NCBI GenBank assembly: GCA_018673215.1
Contig: JABHDE010000037.1
Location: 1 to 64,000 of the forward strand
From: Formosa sp.
GTDB lineage: Bacteria; Bacteroidota; Bacteroidia; Flavobacteriales; Flavobacteriaceae
Reading direction: 5' to 3'
DNA: 64,000 bases
Both the position numbers and the translations under genes were made by a program. The notes below the pieces were generated by a model that was not told where the DNA came from, searched no databases, and was given only the letters and a program-made list of their open reading frames with translations. The number at the start of each line of letters is the position of its first letter. Within the stretch, counting starts at the first letter, position 1. Positions 1,934 through 15,209 of the stretch are shown piece after piece.

Positions 1934-3094
1934 TTATTGTTGTACAAGAGTTACATCTTCGTTATTATTGACAAGTCGTGCGCCTTTGTCTACTAAAATA
2001 GAATTAGAAACAAGTCCGTCAGAGATGTACGATTGGTTGTCGTAATTCATTGCTTCTTTCACATACGTCTTTACAACTTTGTAGTTGTTTTCTTTTGGTT
2101 CAAGGGTGTAAACAAAGGTTTTATTATCTCGATCCTTTTGGACAAGACGGGACGGGACTACAATACCGTTCGCTTTAAAGTCATTTATTTTAAGGTTCGC
2201 TAGCAAATTCGCTTTTAACTCATTGTTAGAGTTTTTTAGATCTATGCGCGTTTTAAAACTTCGATTGTTGGGGTTGATAAAATTACCAACTTGAGATATT
2301 TTTGCTTTGGTGTTTAGATCTATTGAACTAAAACTCAAGAGTACTTCTGTTCCTTTTTTGATTGATTTTAAATAGGTCTCAGTAACGTCACTTTCGACGT
2401 AAACAGTATTTAAATTCACCAACCTTAAGAAGGGTGTTTGTGGAGAAGTGAGTTCTCCAATTTTGGCAAAAACTTGATCTATATTTCCTGAAAATGGAGC
2501 TATTATTTTCATTTTTCTTGCTTGTGCTCTCAAACTTTTTAAATTGTTTTCTAAACTTTCCTTTTGGGCTTTTGCTTGCAGGTACTGAATTTCACTTCCA
2601 ATGTTCTGATCCCAAAGTCTAGCTTGACGCTCAAAAGTTGTGGTTGCCAAAGATAGTTGGGTTTTTAATTGTAAAACAGAATTATCAATAACATCACTAT
2701 CCAACGTCGCCAGGATTTGTCCTTTTGTAACATTTTGCCCTTCTTTAACTAAGATCGCTGTGACCGTGCCTCCTATTTCAGCACGAAGATCGATGCTTTG
2801 ATCGGCCTTTACAGTTCCCTGTACTTCTATGTAATGATTAAAATCTTTGATCTCTGCATTAAGTGACGTCACCGTCATTATTTTTTTTAGAGTATCTAAT
2901 TCAGAAATAGCCTTTTCAACATCTTTTAGTTCTGTACCTATTCGGCTCATTTGCTTTATGAGTGCTGCCTTTTTTGTTTTCAGTTCGGTCAGGGATTGAG
3001 ATTCTTTGTCCGAAGTATTACAGGAAAGTATAAGGGATAAAATCAATAGTAAAAGTGTATTTTTCATAAGGGTAGTATTAAGATGGAATTTCAT
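1934..3094 (-). CDS. RND efflux periplasmic adaptor (HlyD/MFP family), lipoprotein
   Basis: 386 aa; lipobox-like LILSCN; biotinyl-lipoyl-like segment (DLRAEIGGTVTAILVKEGQNVTKGQILATLD). Confidence 0.93.
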   Translation of the reverse strand: MKFHLNTTLMKNTLLLLILSLILSCNTSDKESQSLTELKTKKAALIKQMSRIGTELKDVEKAISELDTLKKIMTVTSLNAEIKDFNHYIEVQGTVKADQSIDLRAEIGGTVTAILVKEGQNVTKGQILATLDSDVIDNSVLQLKTQLSLATTTFERQARLWDQNIGSEIQYLQAKAQKESLENNLKSLRAQARKMKIIAPFSGNIDQVFAKIGELTSPQTPFLRLVNLNTVYVESDVTETYLKSIKKGTEVLLSFSSIDLNTKAKISQVGNFINPNNRSFKTRIDLKNSNNELKANLLANLKINDFKANGIVVPSRLVQKDRDNKTFVYTLEPKENNYKVVKTYVKEAMNYDNQSYISDGLVSNSILVDKGARLVNNNEDVTLVQQ

Positions 3095-3097
3095 TGT

Positions 3098-4438
3098 CTA
3101 ATTTTTAAGAGGGGGGTTGATAAGTACTTCTAAATCAATTCTTTTTATGAGAATATTCAGCATAGACTGTAAATAGTCTTGTTGTGCAGTGTATAATTGA
3201 CGTTGTGCTTGTGAAAGATCGAAACTTGTAGTCAGTCCTTCAAAAAATTTAACTTCATTTTTTTGTGCAATCTGCCCTGAAAGTTCAAGGGCCTCTTTTT
3301 TAATGTCAAGATCTTCAACGGCAAATTCGTAGTCACTTTTTGCACGAGCTATTTCTAATTTAATCTTTTCTGAAGTTTCCTTTAAAAGGGACTTAGATTT
3401 CTCTAAATTGAGGCGGGCTTTTTTGGTAGATGCGCTGCGTCCAAGAGAGCTAAAAATGGGGATGTCCATTGAGACACCAAACAGAGAAGATCCAAACCAA
3501 TCTTGAGAACTATCTAAAAAATCGAATTGATTATTATTTCCAGAATAACTGCCGTTTAAGAATGCATTAATACGAGGTAATGCTTTACTTTTTTCTAATT
3601 TCAACAGGAGTTCTTTCCCTTTTAAATCATTGAACGCAATTTTATAATCCACTACGTTTTCTACTTCAAGAATCGATTCTAAGGGCGTAAGAGAGGTGTA
3701 CATTGCGATCAGTTGATCCAAGCCATTTGTAAGTTCTACAGCAGTATCTAAATCCAATCCAAGGGTGTTATTAAACATTTGATATGCAATTTTTTTTAAG
3801 CGTTTTACATAACTTTGATTGCTTTTTAAACTAGCCAAGGTGAGTTGTAATTGCTGCACACTTTCTTGTTCGACCAAACCATTTTCGTAAACTTTTGTAA
3901 GATCTCTAACATTGTTTTCTAACAAGCTAATATTTGAATTTACAATCTTTAGGTTTTCTTCAGCAAGCAATACGTTTCCATAGGTGTAAGCGACCATTTT
4001 ACGAAGTTCAATTTCTGTTTTTTCTTTCGCATTTTCTGAAATCTCAAGGTATACTTTAGCTGCCTGTAAGCCTACCAAATACGACCCATCAAATATTTTC
4101 TGAGAAATCGTAACCGTTCCATTCATTGTTTGTTTTGTTCCAAAAGTAATTTCAGAAAACTGACCTGGACTTCCTCCAAAGAATTCTGCAGGGATCAACG
4201 ATATTTGTTGTTTCAACCAGTTGTTATAGGTGATTCCTGCTTTAATTTGAGGCAATCCAGTGGATGTTGTTTCCCATTTTTGGAGTTTGGAAATTTCTAC
4301 ATCACGGGCGGCATTTTTGCTCAAAGAATTATTTTGAAGCGCAAAATCAACGGCTTCTTTTAATGAAAATCGCGACATCTCTTGTTGAGAAAATACCGAT
4401 GTAGTTATTAGTAAAAAGAGTATAAATTTAGGAAGCAT
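3098..4438 (-). CDS. TolC family outer membrane efflux protein
   Basis: 446 aa; signal peptide, OEP repeat architecture, operonic with MFP/RND. Confidence 0.92.
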   Translation of the reverse strand: MLPKFILFLLITTSVFSQQEMSRFSLKEAVDFALQNNSLSKNAARDVEISKLQKWETTSTGLPQIKAGITYNNWLKQQISLIPAEFFGGSPGQFSEITFGTKQTMNGTVTISQKIFDGSYLVGLQAAKVYLEISENAKEKTEIELRKMVAYTYGNVLLAEENLKIVNSNISLLENNVRDLTKVYENGLVEQESVQQLQLTLASLKSNQSYVKRLKKIAYQMFNNTLGLDLDTAVELTNGLDQLIAMYTSLTPLESILEVENVVDYKIAFNDLKGKELLLKLEKSKALPRINAFLNGSYSGNNNQFDFLDSSQDWFGSSLFGVSMDIPIFSSLGRSASTKKARLNLEKSKSLLKETSEKIKLEIARAKSDYEFAVEDLDIKKEALELSGQIAQKNEVKFFEGLTTSFDLSQAQRQLYTAQQDYLQSMLNILIKRIDLEVLINPPLKN

Positions 4439-5045
4439 TTGGCGTAAGATTTGATTGTATATAATTATTCAGCAGATTTAATCCTGATTTGGTAACAATG
4501 GCTCGTAAATGGTATTCGAGGTAACTTTCAAAAAGATAGTTTTTATCAAAAAGTTGTTCTGGGAAAACACTAATATCCCGAATAGCAGTCATCCCATTAA
4601 AATACAACCTCGATATAAAATTAATATCAATATCAGGTCTAAACAATCCAGTATCCATTCCCATTTTTAGACTGTTCTCAACAGATGAGTGCATCTTTTC
4701 AAATTGTTTAATTTTTAGACGCTCAAAAATTTGAGGGTAATATTTTTTAAGTTGATACTGTGGTGAAACACGTTCATTTTTGAAGTAATTCATCACAAAC
4801 ATTTTGATGTCATACAGTTCTTCAATAGGGTTGATTGAGGCTGCATTAATTCTGTCAATTCCATCAGAAATATGATCTAGAATAGAAAAAGTAACCACCT
4901 CTACAAGCTCTGTTTTGTTAGCAAAATGGGCGTAAATTGTCTTTTTCGAAATTCCCATAGCATTTGCAATGTCATCCATTGTGACGCTTTTGAATCCGAA
5001 GGATAAAAATAACTCTTCTGCTTTTGATATAATGTTTTCTCTCAT
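4428..5045 (-). CDS. TetR/AcrR family transcriptional regulator
   Basis: N-terminal HTH ISKAEELFLSFGFKSVTMDDIANAMGISKKTIYAHFANKTELV; start set at the internal ATG (5043-5045) instead of 5084; overlaps tolC start by 11 nt. Confidence 0.9.
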   Translation of the reverse strand: MRENIISKAEELFLSFGFKSVTMDDIANAMGISKKTIYAHFANKTELVEVVTFSILDHISDGIDRINAASINPIEELYDIKMFVMNYFKNERVSPQYQLKKYYPQIFERLKIKQFEKMHSSVENSLKMGMDTGLFRPDIDINFISRLYFNGMTAIRDISVFPEQLFDKNYLFESYLEYHLRAIVTKSGLNLLNNYIQSNLTPNAS

Positions 5046-5131
5046 AATTGTCTGCAAACCTACAACAGGAAACTTAAAAAACAATTTAAGTTTCCAAAGT
5101 TTTACAAAGATTTAACATTTATTAGTTTCTC

Positions 5132-5166
5132 TTTGTAACTTAGTTTTAGGAATTCACTTATTTTTG
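5132..5166 (+). promoter_or_regulatory. Bacteroidota-type promoter (TTTG-N23-TATTTTTG) for the polyprenyl synthetase
   Basis: TTTG 5132-5135 and TATTTTTG 5159-5166 directly before ATG at 5171. Confidence 0.5.
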
Positions 5167-5170
5167 TCTT

Positions 5171-6145
5171 ATGAAAGCCATTGAAACATACCAAAAACAA
5201 TTTTTAGCATATTTAGAAAATTACAAATCGGTCCGAGAGCCTAAAAACCTTTACCAACCCATTGAGTATATTCTAAATTTAGGCGGAAAGCGTTTACGCC
5301 CTGTTTTGACCCTTATGACAGCAGAGTGCTTTGAAGGGAATGTTAATAATGCCCTAGACGCTGCCTTGGCAGTAGAGGTTTTTCATAACTTCTCACTCAT
5401 TCATGATGATATTATGGACGCTGCTCCGCTGCGTCGTGGTCATCAAACTGTGCACGAAAAGTGGGATTTAAATACCGGAATTTTATCGGGGGATGCAATG
5501 CTTATTATGGCTTATCAACTTTTTGAAAACTATCCACCAGACGTTTTTCAAAAGCTAGCCATACTTTTTAGTAAAACCGCTTTAGAAGTTTGTGAGGGCC
5601 AACAATATGACATTGATTTTGAAACGCGTGATACTGTTTCAATTTCAGAGTATCTTAAAATGATTGAATACAAAACAGCAGTATTAGTTGGCGCTGCGAT
5701 GAAAATGGGCGCTATTATTGCCAACGCATCAGTAGAGGACCAAGACAGAAGTTATGAATTTGGAAAAAATTTAGGAATTGCTTTTCAATTACAAGACGAT
5801 TACTTAGATGTTTTTGGCGATCCAGATACATTTGGAAAACAAGTTGGGGGCGATATTATAGAAAATAAAAAAACCTTCTTATACTTAAAGGCTTTAGAAT
5901 TTTCATCAGAATCGGACCAACAAAAATTGAAAGACTTGTTCAGCACAGAAGATACCGACTCAAAAAATAAAGTAGAGGTTGTTAAGCAGATCTTTAATGC
6001 TTCAGGATCCTCTGAGGCGACTAAAAAGGCGATTACCTACTATACCAAAACAGCCTTTGAGGTTTTAAAAACCATGAATATTTCAGAAAAAAAGAAACAA
6101 ACTCTTTCAAACTTTGGAACGCAACTTATGACTCGAGACGTTTAA
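5171..6145 (+). CDS. Polyprenyl synthetase family protein
   Basis: GGKRLRP, first Asp-rich motif LIHDDIMD and second motif FQLQDDYLDVFGD. Confidence 0.95.
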   Translation: MKAIETYQKQFLAYLENYKSVREPKNLYQPIEYILNLGGKRLRPVLTLMTAECFEGNVNNALDAALAVEVFHNFSLIHDDIMDAAPLRRGHQTVHEKWDLNTGILSGDAMLIMAYQLFENYPPDVFQKLAILFSKTALEVCEGQQYDIDFETRDTVSISEYLKMIEYKTAVLVGAAMKMGAIIANASVEDQDRSYEFGKNLGIAFQLQDDYLDVFGDPDTFGKQVGGDIIENKKTFLYLKALEFSSESDQQKLKDLFSTEDTDSKNKVEVVKQIFNASGSSEATKKAITYYTKTAFEVLKTMNISEKKKQTLSNFGTQLMTRDV

Positions 6146-6201
6146 AATCGTTGCTTTTGTTCGATAATATTTAATATCTTCATATTTATATCATTTTCAT
6201 A

Positions 6202-6230
6202 TTTGATATCCCTGAAAAATCGTATTTTTG
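6202..6230 (+). promoter_or_regulatory. Bacteroidota-type promoter (TTTG-N17-TATTTTTG) for sucAB
   Basis: TTTG 6202-6205, TATTTTTG 6223-6230, ATG at 6270. Confidence 0.45.
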
Positions 6231-6269
6231 ACCTATATTTTTCTAAAGAAAAAATAGAATAACAAATTC

Positions 6270-9038
6270 ATGGATAAGTATTCTTTTTTAAACGCCGCCC
6301 ATACCGCCTATTTTGCGGATTTATACGAACAATATCAACAAGATCCTGATAGTGTGGAACCCAGCTGGAAAGCTTTTTTTCAAGGCTATGATTTTGGAAG
6401 CGATAACTACGGAGTTTCAGGTGAAATTGTAGAAGGTGTAGACACTCAAATTCCCGAGCATGTCCAAAAAGAATTCCAAGTTGTTAAACTTATCGATGAT
6501 TACCGTACTCGTGGACATTTATTTACCAAAACGAACCCTGTCAGAGATCGCAGAAAATACACACCTTCTTTAGAGTTAAGCAATTTTGGACTGTCGTCCG
6601 CAGACTTAGATACCGTTTTTAATGCAGGTGATATTATTGGGATTGGGCCTCAAAGCTTGCGTGAGATTCAAAAGCATCTGGAAGCTATTTATTGCGATGC
6701 AATCGGCGTAGAATACATGTACATCCGAAGACCAAATGAGCGTCAATGGATTCAAGATAAACTTAACAATAATGATAATCACGGTAATTTCACGCCGAAT
6801 CAAAAAAAACACATCCTCAAAAAACTAAACGAAGCGGTTTCGTTTGAAACCTTTTTGCATACAAAGTATGTGGGTCAAAAACGGTTTTCTCTGGAAGGAA
6901 ACGAATCTTTAATTCCTGCCGTGGATGCGCTTATCGAAAAAGCGGCTGCCTATGGGGTCAAAGAATTTGTCATGGGCATGGCCCACCGAGGTCGTTTGAG
7001 TACATTGACCAATATTTTTGGCAAATCGGCCAGTGATATTTTTAGTGAATTTGACGGTAAAGATTATGAAGAAGAAGTTTTTGATGGCGATGTGAAATAC
7101 CACCTTGGTTGGACAAGTGATCGATTGACAGATAATGGCAATCGAATCAACTTAAGTATTGCACCCAACCCTTCTCACTTAGAAACCGTAGGGGCAGTTG
7201 TTGAAGGAATCACAAGAGCCAAACAAGACAAGCTCAACCCTGAAGATGCCAGCAAAGTGTTGCCTATTGTGGTACACGGAGATGCTGCTATCGCAGGTCA
7301 AGGACTTGTTTATGAAGTCGTTCAAATGGCACAGTTAGATGGCTATAAAACCAATGGAACCATTCATATCGTGGTCAATAACCAAATTGGATTTACCACA
7401 AATTATCTCGATGCACGTTCCTCTACCTATTGTACAGATGTTGCAAAAGTGACCCTGTCTCCGGTATTACATGTCAATGCTGATGATGCCGAAGCTGTAG
7501 TGCACTCGATTTTATTTGCCTTAGATTTTAGAATGCAGTTTAAGCGGGATGTATTTATTGATTTATTAGGCTATCGAAAATATGGTCATAACGAAGGAGA
7601 TGAACCGCGTTTTACACAACCGAAGCTCTATAAAGCCATTGCAAGTCATAACAACCCGCGCAATATTTATGCACAAAAATTAATGGATGAAGGCATTATT
7701 GATTCCAATTATGTTTCAAAGCTTGAGCAAGATTATAAAGCTTCTTTAGAAACGGAATTAGTTACCTCCCGAAAAGAAGATAAAACCGTTATTACCCCAT
7801 TTATGCAAGAGGCTTGGAGTAAATTTCCTAGAGCCAATTCTCATAAAATGAATGTATCAATAGATACCACATACCCTAAAGAAAAACTTGTTACACTCGC
7901 AAAAGTTATATCCTCACTCCCAGAAGACAAGAAGTTTATACGCAAAATTTCACGTTTGATTGAAGCTCGAAAACAAATGTTTGAGGATGATAAACTCGAT
8001 TGGTCTATGGCCGAACATTTGGCCTATGGTTCGCTTTTAGAAGAAGGTTTTAATGTGCGTATTTCTGGACAGGATGTCGAGCGGGGGACGTTCTCACACC
8101 GACATGCCGTAGTAAAAGTTGAAGACAGTGAAGAAGAAGTGATTCTACTCAAAAATATAAGTCCAAACCAAGGACAATTTAATATTTATAACTCTTTGTT
8201 ATCCGAATATGGAGTTGTTGGATTTGACTATGGCTATGCCATGGCAAGCCCAAACACCCTTACTATCTGGGAAGCTCAATTTGGGGATTTCAGTAATGGC
8301 GCCCAAATTATGATTGACCAATACATATCATGTGGAGAAGATAAATGGAAAACACCCAACGGAATTGTAATGTTATTACCGCATGGCTATGAAGGTCAAG
8401 GAGCAGAACATTCCTCAGGACGAATGGAACGTTATCTGCAACTCTGCGCAAAAGACAATATGTTTATTGCCGATTGTACCACACCAGCTAATATGTACCA
8501 TTTATTGAGACGCCAACTCAAAGCTGATTTCAGAAAGCCATTAATTGTATTTACACCTAAAAGTTTATTGCGTCACCCAAAAGTAGTGTCTACGGTTGAT
8601 GAATTTGCTAATGGAAGTTTCCAAATGCTAATTGATGATGCCTCAGCACAAGCAGAAACCATTAAAACCTTGGTTTTTGTAACCGGTAAATTCTATTATG
8701 ATTTATTAGAAGTGCAAGAAAACTTAGGCAGAACCGATGTTGCTCTGGTTCGAATTGAACAACTATTTCCACTTCCAGAAGACGAAATAGAGGCAGTGAT
8801 TTCAAAATATAAAAATACAGAGGACATTGTTTGGGCACAAGAAGAACCAAGAAATATGGGGGCTTACGCCCACATCTTAATGCATATCGACGCTGCTAAG
8901 CATTGGCGTGTGGCTTCAAGACGAAGCTACAGTGCACCCGCGGCTGGAAGTGCCACACGCTCCAAAAAACGACACAAAGAAGTCATAGACTTTGTTTTTG
9001 ATAAAACAAAAGACAACCAAAGAAAAAAACTAAAATAA
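6270..9038 (+). CDS. sucA: 2-oxoglutarate dehydrogenase E1 component
   Basis: 922 aa; conserved E1o segments ([55 protein letters not shown]). Confidence 0.97.
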
Positions 9039-11361: not shown

Positions 11362-11392
11362 GTCACGAGCGGGACACTCGCGCTAGCGGGGA
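11362..11392 (+). repeat. REP-like hairpin element, copy 2 (inverted relative to copy 1)
   Basis: gtcacgagcgggacactcgcgctagcgggga; stem cgagcg/cactcg with compensatory A-T to G-C changes relative to copy 1. Confidence 0.7.
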
Positions 11393-11458
11393 TTTTAATT
11401 TCTAATTTTTCAAAGTTCATTTTTCTTCTTTTTCCTTTTTTAGCGTTCTGATAATGAA

Positions 11459-11590
11459 GCACAACGGTCTCGGCTATGAGTAGTTGCGTGGTTTTGCGAT
11501 TAACTTTGCGAGTACGCACCAAGTTGGAAATTCCTGCGGATTTTCAGAAGTAGGCGAGAACAAGCAATTACTTATAGCCATTGTTGTAGG
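11459..11590 (-). repeat. attC-like imperfect palindrome downstream of the small ORF 11612-12094
   Basis: Left arm gcacaacggtctcggctatgagtagttgcgtg and right arm caagcaattacttatagccattgttgtagg are imperfect reverse complements, about 130 bp overall. Confidence 0.6.
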
Positions 11591-11611
11591 TTTTTTTTTT
11601 AGAATTTTGAT

Positions 11612-12094
11612 TCAATATATTTTTTTCAGTTTCCCTTTTTTCTGCTGTTTTATAAGTTTTTCCATATCCGAATTCTTTCCGAGCTCCGATTTGTTTTGTT
11701 TATAAAATTTAATCGCATTTTCAGCTCCAGCAACAGCACATTCCACTTTATTTTTCGAGTAGTCATTTTCAAGACTATACTTAGTCCATCCACTCATAAA
11801 TGACATTAAGCAATCCGCACAATCTAAAGGCACAATTCCAGAAACCAATTCTATTGAAACAGTTGGACTTCCGCTCATCCATTTCATTAAAAAAGCATTG
11901 ACTTCTTTTCGCTTACTTGAATTTTCCGAAATAGGTGTTTTTAATAACCATTCAGTGGAATTCAGAACTAATTGTTCAGTTTTCTTGTAGTCTTCAGCAT
12001 TTTCGAGTTTTAAATCATTCGGGATTTGAACTTCTTGGGCGAATAAACTTGTGCTTATAAACAATAAGCAAATTAATGTCTTAATTTTATTCAT
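11612..12094 (-). CDS. Hypothetical secreted protein (candidate cassette-borne gene)
   Basis: 160 aa with signal peptide MNKIKTLICLLFISTSLFAQ; flanked by inverted GTTGTAGGT/ACCTACAAC sites. Confidence 0.8.
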   Translation of the reverse strand: MNKIKTLICLLFISTSLFAQEVQIPNDLKLENAEDYKKTEQLVLNSTEWLLKTPISENSSKRKEVNAFLMKWMSGSPTVSIELVSGIVPLDCADCLMSFMSGWTKYSLENDYSKNKVECAVAGAENAIKFYKQNKSELGKNSDMEKLIKQQKKGKLKKIY

Positions 12095-12170
12095 AGTTTT
12101 TATTTTAAATTACCTACAACTAATGTATATAAACCACTAGAGGTGTTTATTTCCTTTATATTTTTGTTTG

Positions 12171-12213
12171 GAGTGGTTCAATACATCCCAAATTGGGGTG
12201 TATTGTGCCACTC
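12171..12213. repeat. 43-bp near-perfect palindrome (21-bp arms, 1-nt loop)
   Basis: gagtggttcaatacatcccaa-a-ttggggtgtattgtgccactc; arms differ at 3 positions. Confidence 0.7.
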
Positions 12214-12368: not shown

Positions 12369-15209
12369 TTAATGCGCTTCGAGCCAATTGACACCCTTAT
12401 CCATTTCCACATCCAAAGGAACACTTAATGAATAGGCGTTCTCCATTTCTTCTTTGATTAAGGTTTTCATGGTTTCCAACTCAGGCTTGTAAACATCAAA
12501 AACCAGTTCATCATGCACCTGAAGAAGCATTTTGGTTTTAAAGCCACCGTCTTCCAGCTTGTTATGGATGTTAATCATTGCAATTTTAATGATATCTGCG
12601 GCGCTTCCTTGGATGGGAGCATTCACCGCATTGCGTTCCGCAGCTCCTCTGACAATCGCATTTCGAGAGTTGATGTCTTTGAGGTAACGACGGCGGTTAG
12701 AAACCGTTGTCACATAGCCATGATCTCTTGCAAAATCAACCTGTGAACTCATATATTTCCGAAGTTTTGGATAGGTTTCATAATAGGTTTCAATCAGCTC
12801 TTTGGCCTCGGTTCGGCTTAAATCGGTTTGGTTGCTCAGACCAAAAGCGGACACCCCATAAATAATTCCAAAGTTGACTGTTTTGGCATTTCCACGCTGT
12901 TCTCTCGTCACTTCTTCCAACGGCACATTAAATACTTTTGCCGCAGTCGAGGCATGAATGTCTTCACCGTTTTTAAAGGCCTCAATCATGGTTTCTTCTT
13001 CGCTCATGGCTGCAATAACCCGCAATTCAATTTGAGAATAATCCGCCGCCAAAAGGATGTACTCCTCATTTCGTGGAATAAATGCTTTTCGCACTTGACG
13101 CCCGCGTTCGGTTCGGATCGGAATGTTTTGAAGGTTGGGGTTGTTACTACTCAAACGCCCTGTGGCAGCCACCGTTTGCATGTACTCGGTATGGATATGT
13201 CCAGTACTCTCTAACACTTGTTCGGGCAGTGCATCTACATAGGTGCTTTTCAGTTTGGCAAGTCCTCTGTAATCCAATACTTTTTGAATGATGTCATGGT
13301 CTTTTGCCAAATAAGACAACACATCTTCTGCCGTACTGTACTGACCTGTTTTTGTTTTCTTTGGTTTATCGACCAACTTCATTTTTTCAAACAAAATCAC
13401 CCCCAATTGTTTGGGCGAGGCAATATTAAAGGTCTCTCCAGCAGCTTCAAATATTTCTGTTTGGAGTCTCTCAATATCATTGTTTAAGTCTTCCGAAAGT
13501 GAGTTTAAAAATTCTGTATCGAGTTTGATCCCTTCTAATTCCATCGAGGCTAAAACCTTCACCAATGGGATTTCTATCTCATTAAATAATTTTAAAGTAT
13601 CGGCATCGGTCAATTCTTTTTTGAAATGACTTGCCAATTGATAGGTAATGTCTGCATCTTCCACCGCATATTCGGTGAGTTTTTCAAGGGACACATCGCG
13701 CATTGAAAGTTGATTCTTTCCTTTTTTTCCAATAAGTTCTGTAATAGAAATTGGACTGTAATTCAAGTAAGTTTCTGCCAACACCTCCATATTGTGACGC
13801 ATATCAGGGTTGATTAAATAATGCGCAATCATGGTATCAAACAAAGTTCCTTTGACCTCGATATTATATTTATGCAATACTTTTAAGTCATACTTCAAAT
13901 TTTGCCCAATTTTCTCAATATGAGTGGCTTCAAAAAAGGGTCTAAATAATTCGATTAATTTTTGGGCTTCCTCAAAAGATTCTGGAAACGGAATGTAAAA
14001 TCCTTTATGTGCTTCCCAAGAAAAAGCTATACCAACAAGTTCTGCTTTCAACGGATTGAGTCCTGTAGTTTCGGTATCAAAACAGACCGAAGTTTGGTTC
14101 ATTAACTGCTTAATTAAGAGTTTTAACCCTAAATCACCTGAAACACTTTGGTAAAAGTGGGGAACCGAATTCGCGGTTTCTCTTCCGTAGTTTTGTGTCG
14201 CCACAGCCGCTGAAGGTTCATCTCCTCCAAACAACGAAAATTGTCCAGCTCCTGCTTCGGTTGTTGGACTCGCAGCGGGTTTTGGAGCAGAATCCTCTGT
14301 CGCTGAAGGGGTGCTTTCAGGGGGATTTACAGCAAATGTTTTATTAAAATTATCGATCAATCTCCTGAACTCCAAGTCTTGAAAAAGGACATTCACTTTT
14401 TCGGTATCGGGGGCAGAGAGTTCAAAACTTTTGGCATCAAATTCTACAGGAACATCCAACAGAATAGTGGCCAGTTTTTTTGAAAGGAGTCCAAGCTCGG
14501 CGTTGGCTTCAATCTTTTCTTTCATTTTCCCTTTGAGTTCATGGGTGTTTGCCAATAAATTTTCCATGCTGCCATATTGTGCAAGTAGTTTTTTGGCAGT
14601 TTTATCGCCCACGCCAGGAAGCCCGGGAATGTTATCAGAAGCATCGCCTTTCATCCCTAAAAAGTCAATCACTTGAAGTGGGTCTTCAATCTCAAATTTT
14701 GCTTTAATTTCTTCGACACCCCAAGTTTCATAGCCGCCTCCAAACACAGGGCGGTACATAAAAATATTCTCACTGACCAGTTGTGCAAAATCTTTATCGG
14801 GGGTGACCATAAAGGTTTTATAGCCTTCTTTTTCGGCTTTTTTAGCTAGGGTTCCAATAATATCATCTGCCTCAAATCCTTCTTTGACAATTATAGGAAT
14901 ATGCATCGCCTCCAAAATTTCATAGATATAAGGAATGGCTACTTTAATTCCTTCGGGGGTTGCATCCCTGTTGGCTTTATATTCTTTAAAAATTTCAACA
15001 CGGTCTTTACTGCCGCCTTTGTCAAAACAAACGGCCAAATGATCCGGACGTTCTCTTTTTATAACATCTAATAATGAGTTGGTAAACCCAAGAATGGCAG
15101 AAGTATCTAGCCCTTTAGAGTTGATTCGAGGGTTTTTGATAAACGCATAATAACCTCTAAAAATGAGAGCATAAGCATCGAGAAGAAATAAGCGTTTTTG
15201 TTCGGCCAT
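12369..15209 (-). CDS. polA: DNA polymerase I
   Basis: 946 aa; 5' nuclease domain, 3'-5' exo motif FDTETTGL, family A motifs ADYSQIELRV and VNFGIIYGVSAFGL, VHDELVF. Confidence 0.98.
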   Translation of the reverse strand: MAEQKRLFLLDAYALIFRGYYAFIKNPRINSKGLDTSAILGFTNSLLDVIKRERPDHLAVCFDKGGSKDRVEIFKEYKANRDATPEGIKVAIPYIYEILEAMHIPIIVKEGFEADDIIGTLAKKAEKEGYKTFMVTPDKDFAQLVSENIFMYRPVFGGGYETWGVEEIKAKFEIEDPLQVIDFLGMKGDASDNIPGLPGVGDKTAKKLLAQYGSMENLLANTHELKGKMKEKIEANAELGLLSKKLATILLDVPVEFDAKSFELSAPDTEKVNVLFQDLEFRRLIDNFNKTFAVNPPESTPSATEDSAPKPAASPTTEAGAGQFSLFGGDEPSAAVATQNYGRETANSVPHFYQSVSGDLGLKLLIKQLMNQTSVCFDTETTGLNPLKAELVGIAFSWEAHKGFYIPFPESFEEAQKLIELFRPFFEATHIEKIGQNLKYDLKVLHKYNIEVKGTLFDTMIAHYLINPDMRHNMEVLAETYLNYSPISITELIGKKGKNQLSMRDVSLEKLTEYAVEDADITYQLASHFKKELTDADTLKLFNEIEIPLVKVLASMELEGIKLDTEFLNSLSEDLNNDIERLQTEIFEAAGETFNIASPKQLGVILFEKMKLVDKPKKTKTGQYSTAEDVLSYLAKDHDIIQKVLDYRGLAKLKSTYVDALPEQVLESTGHIHTEYMQTVAATGRLSSNNPNLQNIPIRTERGRQVRKAFIPRNEEYILLAADYSQIELRVIAAMSEEETMIEAFKNGEDIHASTAAKVFNVPLEEVTREQRGNAKTVNFGIIYGVSAFGLSNQTDLSRTEAKELIETYYETYPKLRKYMSSQVDFARDHGYVTTVSNRRRYLKDINSRNAIVRGAAERNAVNAPIQGSAADIIKIAMINIHNKLEDGGFKTKMLLQVHDELVFDVYKPELETMKTLIKEEMENAYSLSVPLDVEMDKGVNWLEAH

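Follow-up and report, generated by a model that had tools for sequence, protein, structure and literature searches.

The window analysed here is a 64,000-nucleotide stretch of Formosa sp. DNA (contig JABHDE010000037.1), which carries, next to polA and on the minus strand, a compact unit made up of a leader hairpin, an attI-like site, a short core site, one open reading frame and a long imperfect palindrome. An earlier note on this DNA had interpreted the segment as an integron-like gene cassette with a core GTTGTAGGT, an ORF, an inverse core ACCTACAAC and a palindrome ending in GTTGTGC, and each of these elements was recovered in place on the minus strand. The features are as follows:

12369-15209: polA, the upstream neighbour of the cassette
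12213-12171, minus strand: leader hairpin upstream of the attI-like site (predicted stem; the leader is repeated)
12121..12150, minus strand: attI-like site, consisting of dyad ATAAACACCTCTAGTGGTTTAT (12150-12129) and spacer ATACATTA before the crossover GTT
12120-12112, minus strand: cassette start or core site GTTGTAGGT, the exact reverse complement of the inverse core at 11591-11583
12094-11612, minus strand: cassette ORF of 160 aa with a signal-peptide-like N terminus
11591-11583, minus strand: inverse core (R'') ACCTACAAC, from sequence inspection
11459..11591, minus strand: attC-like site ending in GTTGTGC (11465-11459), supported by a covariance-model match and stem covariation
11579-11564 with 11487-11472, minus strand: 16-bp attC-like stem arms, GGCTATAAGTAATTGC with GCAACTACTCATAGCC
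Between these elements of the attC-like site, minus strand: left spacer AAT (3 nt) and right spacer GAGACC (6 nt)
11392..11465, minus strand: second, truncated cassette start GTTGTGCTTCATTATC..., fitting the cassette-start consensus GTTRN5(A/C)ATT

The attC-like palindrome is imperfect and 133 nt long. On the written strand, 14 of the 16 stem positions are paired and the remaining two are A.C; on the opposite strand both become T.G wobbles, leaving a continuous 16-bp stem. The attI-like dyad has one centre mismatch relative to other copies, and the second cassette, which begins at 11465, is interrupted near 11391 by a CCCCGCTAGCGCGAG repeat. This CCCCGCTAGCGCGAG...CCCGCTCGTG repeat (window 11381-11391 onward; L104, L114) borders the cassette locus in three species, including those of genomes G001 and G009. 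The 160-aa protein matched no Pfam family, and homologues of its ORF were present in only 6 of 101 family genomes, its own genome counted. The proportions of the cassette are similar to those of cassettes in arrays.

Considered by itself, the window palindrome is modest (z = -1.5; 14 of 200 shuffles fold equally well), and a single 9-nt match between start and inverse core could have arisen by chance, given that about 4% of shuffled pairs reach 9 nt. Against a covariance model of the site family, the window site scores 100.3 bits (cmsearch, R1 11456-11592, E 3e-20), with the provisos that it was itself among the 30 training sequences and that the E-values of the model are rough. It is therefore the family evidence, namely the model score and the near relatives in arrays whose cores covary cassette by cassette, that places this site far above chance.

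Site family and cassette arrays

A DNA search with the window palindrome gave matches in 24 of 57 genomes, in many copies that were clustered and on a single strand; no convincing Rfam match was found for the site or the arrays. A simple scan by arm alignment detected little or nothing and was replaced by a spacer-aware scan and the covariance model, built from 30 sites. The spacer-aware scan of 12 regions revealed head-to-tail palindromes bounded by N5YAAC on the left and GTTRN5 on the right, the left spacer being short and the right one long, and the covariance model identified sites in 142 of 151 genomes of the family Flavobacteriaceae and in 84 of 197 genomes sampled over the phylum. These site counts are related by descent and do not represent independent events.

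Analysis of the stems indicated strong covariation (95.7% of cells paired, 77 double changes, none of 500 shuffles as high), a result that is partly by construction because the first site finder demanded complementarity of the arms. The sites meet the integron criterion of a palindromic attC whose structure is kept by compensatory change. Two nearly fixed A.C stem positions (30/30 and 26/30 sites) become T.G wobbles on the bottom strand. This strand folds more stably in 222 of 240 sites and is favoured in 228 cases versus 8 when the arms are folded alone. As the bottom strand is the substrate in canonical integrons (PMC3053210), this bias constitutes a shared signature; use of the bottom strand in the Bacteroidota system is inferred from it.

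The cassettes themselves follow a consistent rule. Among 222 consecutive cassettes from 20 arrays with model-defined sites, the start was the exact reverse complement of the cassette's own inverse core over at least 8 nt in 193, compared with 5 for the site's own right end and 9-10 after shuffling. A separate set of arrays with 157 consecutive cassettes gave 111 matches of at least 9 nt, versus 8 for the own right end and 6 when shuffled. Positions 4 to 9 match the own start at frequencies of 0.91-0.96 and the own end at only 0.27-0.67, position 4 already covarying with the start (0.96 versus 0.67), and this argues for an exchange before position 4, within or beside GTT. Position 11 of the match is a fixed mismatch (0.04). 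The earlier note had remarked on the deviation of the window core from GTTRRRY. This deviation is real, but it is not an oddity of one copy: cores fitting GTTRRRY number 17/222 and 9/157, which is not above chance given GTTR, and the core rule of the system is GTTRN5-6.

Cassettes have a median length of 706 bp and a forward ORF is present in 197 of 217; over all cassettes, the ORF has a median coverage of 92% of the length, starts 31 bp past GTT and has its stop 15 nt short of where the inverse core ends. This organization meets the integron criterion of an array of mostly single-gene, co-oriented cassettes. The 130 cassette proteins vary widely in kind and include some defence and immunity families. 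Two arrays (L165 in G184 and L173 in G146) contain, in several of their cassettes, a repeated stretch of about 1310 bp that starts a short way past the core (GTT...ATTATGACCC); this is probably an insertion sequence and possibly an element targeting cassette starts. In another array (L158 in G135, 2689-7520), a two-cassette unit is duplicated in tandem.

The arrays are linked to a tyrosine recombinase gene. When the 20 kb downstream and the 20 kb upstream of this integrase gene were compared in 20 genomes, the covariance model placed all of 256 sites downstream, on the same strand as the integrase, and none upstream. The 55 sites at loci drawn from another collection, of named genomes and one plasmid, likewise all shared the strand of the integrase. 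These loci span Flavobacteriaceae, Cyclobacteriaceae, Bacteroidales, Chitinophaga, Lewinella and a Cytophagales plasmid. A profile built from seven array-adjacent proteins separates these integrases from the XerC/D background (E ~1e-46 to 1e-58) and, by our own count of the results table, 108 of 151 family genomes have a protein that matches it with E below 1e-70. There are also genomes, for example G057, G093, G103 and G123, with many sites and no integrase of this type found, resembling the integrase-less attC clusters of canonical integrons.

Dispersed attI-like leaders and cassette turnover

In 18 of 20 genomes, the first cassette start (8-9 nt match) occurs shortly past the integrase. An inverted repeat of 16-28 bp stands 3-9 nt before GTTR at 13 of 19 candidate points versus 2% of control segments; its sequence varies between genomes, and the layout of dyad, spacer and GTTR follows the integrase in most arrays. 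The integron criterion of an attI beside the integrase, where the first cassette joins, is met. The attI-like site of the window has 96% identity over 49 nt to the sequence directly past the integrase gene in G001 (L110). In the genus of the window, the leader ending in this site is dispersed, with two full places in the window genome and up to 17 hits in one sister-species genome. In G009, a complete sister genome, 9 of 14 leaders have a same-strand site at most 3 kb downstream, where 0.14 would be expected. The hairpin of the leader (window 12171-12213; copies in L104-L123) is conserved upstream of attI and could act as a terminator or promoter element, or could mark a mobile unit by which attI sites are spread.

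Comparison of orthologous loci revealed different cassettes in corresponding places. The window locus in G009 has the same polA and downstream flank with a different cassette, and the cassette at a second locus differs likewise between G001 and G009. In these pairs, and in those of one more locus family, the sequences are 80-95% identical as far as GTT and no more similar than random beyond it, the window pair being less clean before GTT (0.75). A cassette encoding an AbiE toxin-antitoxin lies behind attC in G009 and behind attI in G008, with homology starting at the core; the attC of this cassette has been lost in both. G184 contains an exact, non-tandem repeat of 2391 bp that comprises a whole cassette plus attC and ends at GTT. 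The window locus of G001 is a counter-case, as cassette and attI have been lost together by an imprecise indel, and a cassette-precise empty site was sought there and not found because the indel removes attI too.

All of the tests that the earlier note had proposed for its integron-like reading were positive: the sites flank ORFs, the start of a cassette varies together with its inverse core, relatives have a diverged tyrosine recombinase at the head of arrays, and the cassettes at orthologous loci are different, with GTT as the point where homology ends. Comparative sequence evidence makes it very probable that the window feature is a cassette with a single gene, belonging to an integron-like system found in Bacteroidota.

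The earlier note had also suggested mobilization in trans. This is plausible for the window cassette, which sits on a dispersed attI-like leader, but has not been shown, as searching the MAG to which the window belongs gave no integrase of this type, the best profile match (3e-53) being at XerC/D level. This MAG is 91% complete with 7.8% contamination, so absence of the integrase is not proven. The window copy may instead be a fossil, that is, a real cassette of the system that can no longer be moved in this genome, and we consider the chances of this to be slightly under even. Such a state is consistent with the missing integrase, the truncation of the next cassette, the centre mismatch in the attI dyad and the integrase reading frame of G001, which is broken by stops. 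Retention of both the continuous bottom-strand stem and the 9-nt match between start and inverse core speaks against decay, as does the different cassette found at the same locus in a sister species with an integrase of this type, which indicates past activity of the locus within the genus.

The recombinase and the nature of the system

The catalytic R, K, HxLRH, H and Y positions of the array-adjacent integrases are conserved in a 28-sequence alignment. The arrays could potentially be explained as a chromosomal integron of the ordinary kind, with canonical attC sites and an IntI that is genuine though divergent, as the architecture, the GTT crossover region and the bottom-strand folding bias are the same, IntI4 (2a3v) is among the best structural matches of the integrase, and the proteins reach 186-219 bits against the integron-integrase model TIGR02249. 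These scores are, however, under the 265-bit cut-off for all ten proteins scanned, and the additional domain of IntI is absent: the distance from K to HxLRH is 64-65 aa versus 105-106 in IntI, and residues 179-247 of IntI4 (69 aa) align opposite only 26 aa of the integrase. A quick tree places the integrases outside both IntI and XerC/D, with the XerC/D proteins of the same genomes in a separate clade (support 99). Given also the rarity of cores fitting GTTRRRY, a true IntI is most unlikely. Repeats dispersed in the manner of MITE or REP elements, or terminators standing after genes by chance without any cassette recombination, could explain palindromes close behind stop codons and the REP-like repeats at the window locus but not the covariation of start and inverse core, the placement of sites exclusively downstream of one integrase family or the breaks in homology at GTT, and can scarcely be entertained.

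Two other assignments of recombinases were examined. Membership of XerC/XerD with dif was rejected on the basis of the tree, in which the integrases do not group with these proteins, and a second recombinase type in G028 and G023 (L063, L078) was set aside as it branches apart from the array-adjacent integrases. One locus (G018:C13; L052, L053, L062) has some 85-nt attC-like sites of a different sequence type and a 272-aa integrase that lacks the N-terminal domain and is divergent from its array.

This extra N-terminal domain of about 80 aa has weak similarity to the HARP domain of SMARCAL1 by three concordant routes: Pfam (E 0.001, below cut-off, in 2 of 10 proteins), a PDB profile search (E 0.0024) and a Foldseek fold search (probability 0.82, E 0.08). 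HARP domains are described as mediating annealing helicase activity (cited in PMC9243424), and handling of folded single strands by the HARP-like domain is no more than an attractive guess. A contig of an Undinarchaeales MAG (L225) encodes an integrase whose N-terminal domain is similar; this could reflect transfer, a binning error or a wider range.

The system is integron-like in its apparent working, yet it is not a canonical integron, because the IntI additional domain is missing, the integrases lie outside IntI and XerC/D, and the core is different. All of the evidence is comparative; no recombination has been observed, and activity and site-specific recombination by the integrase are inferred from sequence only. 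Within these limits, the data support a foldable attC-like site on the cassettes, arrays that start at a dyad-symmetric attI-like site just past the integrase, swapped segments that begin within GTT and a bottom strand predicted to give the better hairpin. In the mechanism we propose, cassettes would be recombined at GTTR by a relative of XerA and IntI, a tyrosine recombinase that has no IntI additional domain but carries a HARP-like domain at its N terminus. The enzyme may recognize the folded bottom strand by structure, through the asymmetry of the spacers and the two fixed wobble pairs, and cut within GTT. Cassettes would be excised as circles, in which R'' and R' are then fully complementary, and be inserted at attI or attC. 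In the window's genus, dispersal of the attI-like leader around the chromosome would lead to single cassettes at many loci, the window being one such solo-cassette locus on a dispersed attI copy beside polA.

We lean towards the view, without strong confidence, that this is a second integron class not nested in the IntI integrons, in which a HARP-domain recombinase replaced the IntI additional domain in recognizing folded single-stranded ends, spread as the main cassette platform of Bacteroidota and serves dispersed attI copies in trans in some lineages. No published description of the system was found in the open-access literature, a search that left out preprints and most subscription journals. 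Bacteroidota are regarded as almost devoid of integrons, and the IntegronFinder 2.0 survey reported one complete integron in Bacteroidetes proper, in Salinibacter (PMC9024848). If our interpretation is true, most Flavobacteriaceae hold a large unrecognized cassette system of small genes, mostly of unknown function and including some defence genes, which would be a second case for studying integron evolution and raises the question of how attC sites folded from a single strand can be read by a recombinase that has no IntI additional domain. Sites, integrases and dispersed attI copies alike are concrete enough for testing.

Among known systems, the HARP domain of SMARCAL1 (4o66, PF07443) offers a match to the N-terminal domain that is weak, though sequence and fold agree on it; in SMARCAL1 it is part of an annealing helicase, and a recombinase would be a new context for it. 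XerCD pdif modules are likewise mobile gene modules moved by a tyrosine recombinase, but they have 28-bp dif flanks rather than one folded attC per gene and, to our knowledge, no dedicated integrase. In both sequence and fold, the catalytic part is overall best matched by XerA / NF040815 (5hxy, 4a8e), which is without the N-terminal domain of the Bacteroidota integrase; XerA acts on double-stranded dif-like sites, and we know of no cassette arrays associated with it. Integrons, such as the Vibrio superintegron and that of Treponema denticola, share with the Bacteroidota system co-oriented arrays of single-gene cassettes, imperfect palindromic attC sites with asymmetric spacers, a cassette start complementary to its own inverse core, exchange within GTT, a bottom-strand folding bias and an integrase beside attI. 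The Bacteroidota system differs from them in an integrase that carries an extra N-terminal domain but not the IntI additional domain, in a core of GTTRN5-6 rather than GTTRRRY with complementarity over 9-10 nt, in an attI composed of a 16-28 bp dyad and a spacer, in an integrase gene that is co-directional with the array in nearly all cases, and in the dispersal of attI-like leaders in one genus.
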